Of a stretch of DNA of 40,917 nt, positions 14,183 to 21,692 are shown piece after piece. Numbering within the stretch: position 1 is the first letter of the stretch; each line of letters begins with the position of its first letter. A model generated the notes under the pieces. It made no database searches. It worked only from the letters and a program-made list of their open reading frames with translations, and was not told the DNA's origin. Origin of the DNA: Actinomycetes bacterium (GTDB lineage: Bacteria; Planctomycetota; Phycisphaerae; JAACET01). The stretch is from contig JAUXAG010000018.1 in NCBI GenBank assembly GCA_030614915.1, positions 1-40,917 on the forward strand, written 5' to 3'. A program made the position numbers and the translations under genes.

Positions 14183-14316
14183 CATTAGCTATTAGTCATT
14201 AGTCATTTGTTATTTACCCCGAAACCTTGGGCCTGTTCAAAATGACAAATAGCTAATAAACCCCCGGTAACGCGTAGCGTCCTTCCCGTAGGGACCTGTG
14301 GTCGGAAACCGGGGGC
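14183..14316. repeat. AT-rich inverted repeat plus GC hairpin module
   Basis: Two nested repeat types lie between the LarA-like gene and hisD. An AT-rich pair has ATTAGCTATTAGTCATT near 14185-14201 and its inverted copy near 14240-14257 (16 of 17 match). Next, arms CCCCCGGT (14261-14268) and ACCGGGGG (14308-14315) enclose a 32-bp segment (14279-14310) identical to 5225-5256. That segment contains small hairpins TCCC/GGGA and GACC/GGTC. Confidence 0.75.
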
Positions 14317-14369
14317 TAAATATCGTATGATTCCCCAAAAGCCTAATGCGCCCTAGTTTAGCGGTGGGG

Positions 14370-19837: not shown

Positions 19838-20344
19838 ATGCGAATTGTAGGCATAGATCCGGGGCTGGAGGTAACGGGGTATGCAGTGCTGGATAGTGCC
19901 GACGGAAATGTGAGCATAGTGGATGCGGGGATAATCAAAACGAACCGTAGGTGGGAGTTGGCTAAGCGGCTGGTGGTTTTGTCGAAGGAACTGGGGGAGC
20001 TGCTGGCTGAGCATGAGCCGGAGGTGATGGCTGTGGAGGAGTTGTATTCGCACTATCGCTTCCCGCGGACGAGTATCCTAATGGGACACGCCAGGGGGGT
20101 GATCCTGGAGGCGGCGGGCAAGCTGGATGTGAAAGTGATGGCCTATGCGGCTACGCGGGTGAAAAAAAGTATTACGGGCAACGGGCGAGCGAGCAAGGAG
20201 CAGGTCCAAAGGGCGGTCAAAGCAGAGTGCAAGCTGAGGAAAACGCCTCGGCCGGCAGACGTGGCCGACGCTCTGGCCATCGGTCTCTGCTGTGCTAAGG
20301 AGCTGGAAAAGGGGGCCTTGACAGGATTGGTGGTGAAAGGATGA
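19838..20344 (+). CDS. ruvC: Holliday junction resolvase RuvC
   Basis: A 168-residue endonuclease that cuts Holliday junctions in pairs. The four acidic catalytic residues fit the family: D7 (GIDPGLEVTGY), E67/E68 (AVEELYSHYR), D141 and D144 (PADVADALAIG). ATG at 19838 follows GGGAG. It overlaps ruvA by four bases. A weak promoter TTTACC, 17 bp, TAGGAT may lie in the preceding repeat. Confidence 0.94.
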   Translation: MRIVGIDPGLEVTGYAVLDSADGNVSIVDAGIIKTNRRWELAKRLVVLSKELGELLAEHEPEVMAVEELYSHYRFPRTSILMGHARGVILEAAGKLDVKVMAYAATRVKKSITGNGRASKEQVQRAVKAECKLRKTPRPADVADALAIGLCCAKELEKGALTGLVVKG

Positions 20345-20979
20345 TAGCTAAGATCAGCGGGACATTGGCGGAAGTGGCCAAGGCGGCGGTGCTGATAGAG
20401 GTGGGCGAGATCGGCTATGAGGTGATGGTGCCGGGATACGCGTTGGAGCTTCTGGCCAGCAAGATCGGCCAGCAAGTTTCGCTGTACACGTTGGAATATT
20501 TAGAGGGCAGCCTGGCGACGGGGGGTAATCTGGTGCCTAGGCTGATCGGTTTTATGCACAGCGAGGAGCGGGCCTTCTTCGAGCGGTTCACCTCGGTCAA
20601 GGGAGTAGGGATGCGCAAGGCACTGAAGGCTTTGAGTATGCCTATCAGCCGGGTGGCCTCGGCGATCGAGGCTAAGGATAGCAAGCTGCTGCAGAGTTTG
20701 CCGGGCGTGGGCCGACGGCTGGCGGACCAGATGGTGGCGGAATTGGCGGGGAAGATGGATGAGTTCGCCCTGGAGGCTGCAGCCCAGCGCGGCGATAGCA
20801 GCGGCTGGGCTCAGGGACATAGTGAAGCCCTGGAAATCCTGCTGCAATTGGGTGAGCGGCGCAGCGATGCACAGGAGTTGATCGAGCGAGTGCGACAAGT
20901 CGATCCGAAAATGGACAGGCCGGAGGAAATCGTCCAGGCGGTGTATCGGCTCAAGGCCGGACAGTCCGCGATCAGTTAG
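20341..20979 (+). CDS. ruvA: Holliday junction branch migration protein RuvA
   Basis: A 212-residue subunit that binds four-way junctions and recruits RuvB. It has an OB-like N-terminal domain (ISGTLAEVAKAAVLIEVGEIGYEV), two helix-hairpin-helix motifs (SVKGVGMRKALKALS and SLPGVGRRLADQMVAEL) and a C-terminal RuvB-contact domain (EALEILLQLG). The stop codon TAG (20977-20979) falls inside the TTAGACGCTGA end of the repeat-bounded cassette, suggesting that the insertion defined the present C-terminus. Confidence 0.93.
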   Translation: MIAKISGTLAEVAKAAVLIEVGEIGYEVMVPGYALELLASKIGQQVSLYTLEYLEGSLATGGNLVPRLIGFMHSEERAFFERFTSVKGVGMRKALKALSMPISRVASAIEAKDSKLLQSLPGVGRRLADQMVAELAGKMDEFALEAAAQRGDSSGWAQGHSEALEILLQLGERRSDAQELIERVRQVDPKMDRPEEIVQAVYRLKAGQSAIS

Positions 20980-21000
20980 ACGCTGAAAGAAAAGAAGAAT

Positions 21001-21124
21001 TTTGACGCTGATTACGCTGATTACGCTGATGAATACAGAGAATACAGAAAGAAATACAGAATTTTGACGCTGATTACGCTGATTACGCTGATGAATGCAG
21101 AGAATACAGAAAGAAATACAGAAA
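21001..21124. repeat. 62-bp direct tandem repeat
   Basis: Units at 21001-21062 and 21063-21124 match at 60 of 62 positions. Each begins with TTTGACGCTGATTACGCTGA and itself contains the short word GCTGATTAC repeated. Related words in opposite orientation lie at 21600-21664. Confidence 0.9.
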
Positions 21125-21155
21125 TCAGCGTCCAAGATATTAGCGTGGAGCGAAG

Positions 21156-21536
21156 ATGTATAAACATGCTGAACTAACACAAGAGATTATTAAAGCGGCC
21201 CAGAATGTTCATAATACGTTAGGTCACGGCTTTCTTGAAAAAGTCTATCACAATGCGATGGCTTTGGAATTGCGTAAAATGGGACTTGAGCTTATATGCG
21301 AAAAGCCAATCCAGCTATACTACGACGGCCAAGTCATTGGTGAATACTATGCAGACATAGTTGTCGATGATAAGGTGATACTGGAGATTAAGGCGGTCCA
21401 GGCGGTTAATCCAGTTCACGAGGCTCAACTGGTTAACTACCTCAAGGCGACTGACATAGAGGTGGGTCTGTTGTTGAACTTTGGGAAATCGTTGGAGGTT
21501 AAGCGCAGAATATTTGAGACTGTTCGGAGGCGATAG
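21156..21536 (+). CDS. GxxExxY family (PDDEXK-like) protein
   Basis: A 126-residue protein with the name-giving motif G25-x-x-E28-x-x-Y31 (GFLEKVY). A PD-(D/E)xK-like nuclease core follows: D67 in YYADIVVDD, then E77 and K79 in ILEIKA, and the strand VGLLLNFGKSLEVKRR. The ATG follows GGAGCGAAG. Proteins of this family are common, often multi-copy and of unknown function; the nuclease fold is from family knowledge. It lies inside the ruv cluster, bounded by inverted repeats. Confidence 0.85.
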   Translation: MYKHAELTQEIIKAAQNVHNTLGHGFLEKVYHNAMALELRKMGLELICEKPIQLYYDGQVIGEYYADIVVDDKVILEIKAVQAVNPVHEAQLVNYLKATDIEVGLLLNFGKSLEVKRRIFETVRRR

Positions 21537-21692
21537 TCTTGGCTGTAAACTCTACTGACTACGGGGAACTCGGAGGACTCGAAAGATAGAAGCAGTTGGA
21601 ATCGGCGTAATCTGCGGAATCAGCGTCTAATTATCTTTCTGTATTCTCTGGATTCGGCGTCTAATTGAATCTTATCATAGTAAAGGAATAAC

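Follow-up and report, generated by a model that had tools for sequence, protein, structure and literature searches.

The nearest described phenomena to the locus reported here are the REP/RAYT systems (REPtrons and REPINs) and the TIRtrons (TIRYT), along with the TAACTGA repeats (PMC3733652; PMC4679880). REP/RAYT systems and TIRtrons consist of one gene between inverted repeats, copies of which are scattered through intergenic regions, singly and as inverted pairs, in families that vary between genomes (PMC3733652). The unit found between ruvA and ruvB shares flanking and dispersed inverted repeats, including gene-less pairs. However, a PD-(D/E)XK nuclease stands where a REPtron has a Y1 HUH transposase gene, and the arms are tandem words of 8–10 bp rather than GTAG-tagged palindromes of 20–40 bp or plain terminal inverted repeats. 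The TAACTGA direct repeats of Beggiatoaceae, cyanobacteria and Bacteroidetes are likewise short intergenic tandem words, patchy across distant phyla and of unknown mechanism, but they comprise a fixed heptamer found mostly in direct sets upstream of start codons, with no linked gene reported (PMC4679880). Insertion sequences and MITEs resemble the unit in having terminal inverted repeats, autonomous and gene-less copies and dispersal within a genome. They differ in that the cassette has no DDE or other transposase, shows no consistent target-site duplication in comparisons short of strain level, has arms built of word arrays and has relatives in which hairpins are nested centrally. Cas4/RecB-type nucleases (SSO0001, LHK-Exo, ACE1) share with GxxExxY proteins a fold and the D...ExK...QxxxY motif, whereas the GxxExxY protein has 126 residues, a single cysteine and no adjacent cas genes. 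The 23S rRNA intervening sequences with TIGR02436 ORFs also place a small ORF inside inverted arms, with a different protein and words of 7 bp. Intervening sequences proper are located in rRNA. No paper on GxxExxY function or on the repeats was found in a search that did not cover subscription journals and preprints, and the arm words as literal strings were absent from the literature searched. The arm-bounded GxxExxY unit is thus apparently undescribed, although a lack of prior description is unproved.

The window, the whole stretch of 40,917 nucleotides analysed, carries ruvC, ruvA, the GxxExxY gene and ruvB in that order. The features of the locus are as follows.

20341–20979, plus strand: ruvA, upstream host gene (TIGR00084, 135 bits)
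20976–21135, plus strand: left arm, TTAGACGCTGA followed by two copies of a 62-bp block; absent from G001
20976–20986: TTAGACGCTGA, including the ruvA stop codon TAG (20977–20979)
20985–21046, plus strand: first 62-bp direct repeat
21001–21030, plus strand: first copy of the period-9 array of the 9-bp word ACGCTGATT, reading inward
21031–21052, plus strand: second word block, AATACAGAGAATACAGAAAGA; inverted partner at 21634–21655, 95% complementary
21047–21108, plus strand: second 62-bp direct repeat, 94% identical to the first
21063–21092, plus strand: second copy of the period-9 ACGCTGATT array, reading inward
21156–21536, plus strand: ORF of the predicted GxxExxY PD-(D/E)XK nuclease, 126 aa (TIGR04256, PF13366)
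21601–21664, minus strand: right arm, left-arm words inverted in identical outside-to-inside order
21620–21630: TCAGCGTCTAA
21634–21650: reversed CAGAGAATACAGAAAGA
21654–21664: TCGGCGTCTAA
21693–22727, plus strand: ruvB, downstream host gene (NF000868, 458 bits)

The preliminary description had placed a GxxExxY gene within the ruvCAB cluster, splitting ruvA from ruvB and enclosed by inverted words, with two 62-bp direct repeats on the left and a reversed word on the right. Each of these elements was recovered at its position, with a TIGR04256 match of 142 bits between 20979 and 21693. Two long matches join the arms, one of 30 nt at 87% identity (21001–21030 or 21063–21092 versus 21601–21630) and one of 22 nt at 95% (21031–21052 versus 21634–21655). 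The arm-to-arm local alignment score was 62, compared with a maximum of 28 across 2000 shuffles of both flanks; together with the control ORFs described below, this excludes a chance origin of the arms. The 62-bp repeat, correctly seen as a direct repeat, is more precisely a duplication of the left arm alone, and the ends are therefore best called arms of ACGCTGATT words and ATACAGAGA words. As was also claimed, the ruvA stop codon falls in the left end: it is supplied by the opening bases of the left arm, and the C-terminal residues of RuvA are unlike those of the insert-free relative G001.

The window protein meets the requirements for family membership, scoring 142.3 bits against TIGR04256 (cut-off 35) and 139.8 bits against PF13366 (cut-off 22). 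It also has the attributes of a PD-(D/E)XK protein with the QxxxY motif of the Cas4/RecB type, namely the fold and an E, a D, ExK and QxxxY that are invariant or nearly so (E28, D67, E77, K79, Q91 and Y95 in the window protein). No convincing solved homologue was detectable by sequence. An AlphaFold model gave a compact fold (pLDDT 92.8) for which the best Foldseek match in the PDB was SSO0001, a Cas4 (E=1.7e-4), followed by the lambda-exonuclease-type LHK-Exo and, weakly, by ACE1 and archaeal Hjc. dN/dS values of 0.07 and 0.11 for two orthologous pairs indicate purifying selection; synonymous sites of the window orthologue pair were saturated. The fold and the conserved residues point to nuclease activity, which is predicted without any assay. 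Cas4 itself is characterized by four cysteines for an Fe-S cluster and a cas1/cas2 context. The single cysteine among 126 residues precludes such a cluster, and the neighbors are ruvC, ruvA and ruvB. Nor does the locus look like a restriction-modification or toxin-antitoxin system, with a single ORF between the arms and unrelated host genes on either side. Defence models returned merely weak Cas4 and AbiEii matches, and a defence-system identity was rejected. Three GxxExxY copies (L063, L064 and L079) each contain one in-frame stop, that of L063 at the ExK lysine, so GxxExxY copies do decay.

GxxExxY genes are present in 39 of 61 genomes of the class. The generality of the arms was assessed by scoring how well the 300 bp on one side of an ORF match, in inverted orientation, the 300 bp on the other, with a score of at least 30 defined as armed. 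By this measure 115 of 147 distinct GxxExxY loci were armed, as opposed to 1 of 216 other ORFs (drawn from the first 106 loci) and 9.7% of mismatched pairs of upstream and downstream flanks from different loci; arms were lacking within 300 bp at about a fifth of GxxExxY loci. Represented in the sample are Planctomycetota, Chloroflexota, Bacteroidota, Acidobacteria, Proteobacteria, Verrucomicrobia, Cyanobacteria and Methanosarcinales, and the armed architecture recurs in a plasmid record from Bacteroides finegoldii. The 80 loci from other phyla were retrieved with GPGLLES-subgroup patterns and therefore represent that half of the family. Median lengths were 35 bp for the arm and 498 bp for the cassette. 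Each arm holds at least three copies of a 7–8 bp core, one per 8–10 bp (spacing of 9 in 80 cases, 8 in 45 and 10 in 34), and of 110 cases in which orientation could be decided, 103 have inward-reading words; TTAACCGCAGAGAACGCAGAGAACGCAGAG, TTTACCACAGAGGCACAGAGACACAGAGG, AACCATGAAGCACATGAAGAGCATGAAG, TTAGCCACAGATGGGGCACAGATGAACACAGATG and GAACCGCCAAGACGCCAAGATCGCCAAG are typical. Genes flanking the cassette were co-directional at 74 of 114 loci versus 85 of 195 control triples (p=0.0004). GxxExxY had no match among 50,697 phage records, and 2.9 million viral contigs yielded only 3 loci; on these scans a phage origin was rejected. The linkage of gene and arms across the 147 loci, far above that of control ORFs, supports the earlier proposal of a mobile or repeat-linked system. 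Finding the repeats unlinked to GxxExxY genes would have refuted that proposal, and was not the case. A special tie to DNA repair was not supported: cassettes also occur at groEL-dnaJ, radA and metabolic operons, and with so many operon kinds occupied we dropped the idea. The ruv location is best read as incidental, ruvA-ruvB being one tolerated co-directional junction among many.

Comparison of orthologous junctions shows the unit present or absent as a whole. G001, of the same genus and with flanks 88% identical, has a short ruvA-ruvB junction without the insert, having neither gene nor arms. G002, of the same genus with 71–74% identical DNA, carries an orthologous cassette whose arms read TTTAGACGCAGATTACGCTGATT / TTTTGACGCTGATTACGCAGATT. 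The spacing comparison proposed earlier is thus answered, and the outcome that would have spoken against the proposal, a ruvA-ruvB gene without repeats in relatives, was not encountered. Occupancy of the site in the source genome (G000) and G002 with vacancy in G001 implies either loss in the G001 line or more than one gain. A second empty site is the groEL-dnaJ junction of G005, compared with an occupied one in G031 (93% identical upstream and 89% downstream), and a third is a further junction in G045. At the site empty in G045, G005 holds an unrelated insert of ~0.5 kb (L328, near 44849–45377 of G005:C19), which may encode a small lipoprotein-like ORF. No consistent target-site duplication was seen at the three empty sites or in 21 gene-less pairs, comparisons in which flanks were 81–93% identical and not at strain level. 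No DDE or other transposase and no recombinase was found, the sole gene between the window arms being the PF13366 gene; in the absence of these and of a target duplication, the chemistry of insertion is undetermined. Duplication within genomes runs exactly from arm to arm: G039 has two copies, 87% identical, with limits at the arms and unrelated flanks, and comparable dispersed pairs occur in G042, G056 and G053. Mobility of the cassette as a unit is well supported. The flanks of L208 (in G052) are those of the groEL-dnaJ cassettes L016 and L018, while its protein lies elsewhere on the tree; L192, with the flanks of L181 and L214, is likewise placed elsewhere. Such sharing of junctions by cassettes of different clades, in different genera, suggests that tolerated or preferred sites are reused.

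Arm words fall into two classes, an AG type (CACAGAG-type) and a GAT type (CAGATT-type). A tree was built from 72 class proteins identified by HMM; over it, the word class of the 60 cassettes that could be classified changed 2 times, compared with a mean of 19.7 after shuffling, and 0 of 500 shuffles were as low. With both types coexisting in seven genomes, the core word tracks the protein clade and not the genome. Residues that best separate the word classes include those at window positions 24, 26, 94 and 98. Descent as one unit suffices to explain the pairing of word and clade; a protein that recognizes its word, which is not shown, would explain it too. Co-inheritance would also be expected if the gene just rides within the arms.

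Arms and gene are inherited jointly, and arms are also dispersed in the same genomes as gene-less inward pairs and solo arrays. The AG-arm pattern ACCRCRGAGN{1,3}CRCRGAGN{1,3}CRCRGAG had 514 matches in the 61 genomes versus 1 for the reversed control. Among the matches listed, pairs within 800 bp were inward in 26 cases, outward in 0 and same-strand in 4, most inward pairs being too short to hold the gene. Gene-less inward pairs of 90–400 bp are common and form within-genome families, as seen in the related sequences of G021 and G043; no GxxExxY remnant was detected inside 21 of the shorter pairs. All seven gene-less hairpins of G021 rank 1–2 of 147 for likeness to the arms of its own cassette, a likeness that was not clear in G010, G019 and G029. 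Of genomes at least 90% complete, at least five arms were present in 16 of 36 with the gene and 0 of 16 without it (p=0.0009). At lower completeness, G043 (88%) has 16 arms and G001 (83%) keeps its arrays, with no gene detected in either. Hairpins may also be nested. L318 (637–1035) comprises three inverted pairs, with CACAGAG outermost, CGCAGATT in the middle and CGCGAATGG innermost, and L316 (673–923) comprises two with different words, as if one hairpin had entered the center of another.

A second, unrelated cargo family shows that the arm-bounded architecture is wider than this nuclease. Genes for TIGR02436 four-helix-bundle proteins are present in 50 of the 61 class genomes, with chromosomal copies in inverted-arm cassettes of tandem words of about 7 bp. 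Arms were found at 26 of 29 loci (L151–L180), with words such as AGGCTTG, GGTCGTA, CAGCTTT and GAGTGCC. Such loci in the source genome lie at G000:C5:89156-89470 (L180) and G000:C8:52787-53101.

We interpret the locus, with moderate confidence, as a small mobile element composed of an inward-reading word arm, a GxxExxY nuclease gene and an inverted arm; the role of the nuclease is inferred, and no experiment shows cutting or movement. The main rival explanation, which we think unlikely without dismissing it, holds that mobility or self-propagation belongs to the arms, through host replication and repair or an unknown enzyme acting in trans, and that GxxExxY is a captured passenger, perhaps with its own function. 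Consistent with a passenger, gene-bearing hairpins are far fewer than gene-less hairpins and solo arrays, hairpins are nested within one another, TIGR02436 genes occupy cassettes of the same plan and G043 has many arms but no detected gene. A mere passenger, however, fits poorly with a word class that tracks GxxExxY clade, with the confinement of high arm number to gene-positive members of the near-complete genomes, and with catalytic residues kept under purifying selection. It also fits poorly with two cargo families whose arms differ in period (8–10 versus about 7 bp), a difference that makes the arms cargo-specific. TIGR02436 accordingly cuts both ways, in that cargo-specific arms favor a functional link and the existence of two unrelated cargos makes a nuclease less necessary.

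Other explanations fare worse. A homing-type selfish nuclease would cut arm words elsewhere, and the cassette would be copied in by recombination via its arms. Homing enzymes of the PD-(D/E)XK type exist, the arms beside the nuclease gene could act as homology and dispersed word arrays could be targets. Homing nonetheless requires an intact site in the empty allele, and at the three empty sites the point of insertion is free of arm words and arrays, hence there is no uninterrupted recognition site; we regard it as very improbable. We give slightly less credence still to a transcript-level device, in which the arms would pair in the operon mRNA and act as an attenuator, insulator or RNase III site around a vertically kept gene, in the manner of 23S rRNA intervening sequences. 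The complementary arms and the excess of co-directional flanking genes agree with this explanation, but arm mismatches were not significantly G-U biased on the sense strand (159 versus 131, p=0.11) and no Rfam family matched. These results led us to reject selection for RNA pairing, and duplication within genomes and presence/absence of the unit also count against such a device. Ordinary intergenic simple repeats, or coincidence, can draw on the intergenic heptamer arrays of unexplained cause in other bacteria (PMC4679880) but are refuted by the controls for armed loci and for the arm pattern, and are scarcely credible.

The best reading of the cassette as a mobile element is by analogy, as a putative counterpart of REP/RAYT with a Cas4-like nuclease and no transposase. 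What is well supported is a mobile, arm-bounded cassette and its gene-less hairpin relatives; the nuclease as driver of movement is the most economical reading, yet remains an inference. The nuclease, as a minimal PD-(D/E)XK enzyme of the Cas4/RecB type, would recognize the repeated core; since cores recur about once per turn of the helix, one face of an arm might accommodate several protomers. It may then cut or trim a hairpin or junction formed by the arms, releasing or seeding copies that host repair and replication would insert, without target duplication, into breaks, gaps or the loops of hairpins already present. On this view, hairpins without the gene would be non-autonomous copies that are mobilized in trans, much as RAYTs mobilize REPINs. 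A broader proposal, possible but tentative, is a class of mobile DNA that spreads by means of a Cas4-like nuclease acting alone, with no transposase, its clade-specific arm words read by the enzyme and its copies entering hairpin centers to yield nested palindromes, with the four-helix-bundle family as a parallel class using 7-bp words. A role for GxxExxY, a family of many phyla including archaea, becomes testable through its own arms, and the pairing of protein clade and word offers a ready specificity code. Many anonymous intergenic repeats in environmental genomes would be explained and, if the nuclease drives movement, a transposase-free way to move DNA would be added.

In the source genome, where a search for the 62-bp repeat and other GxxExxY genes had been suggested, the window's left-arm word recurs at dozens of further places, and the GxxExxY gene is single. 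Solo arrays, not pairs, predominate there, mostly intergenic and often adjoining arrays of other words; one gene-less inverted pair was seen, with 18-nt arms 25 nt apart. Elsewhere in the window (14183–14330), and also on G000:C35 and C13, a period-7 word array lies beside a copy of a separate dispersed family, ACCCCCAGG...CCTGGGGGCTAAATATA, and GGGGGCTAAATA was found 21 times in about 437 kb.
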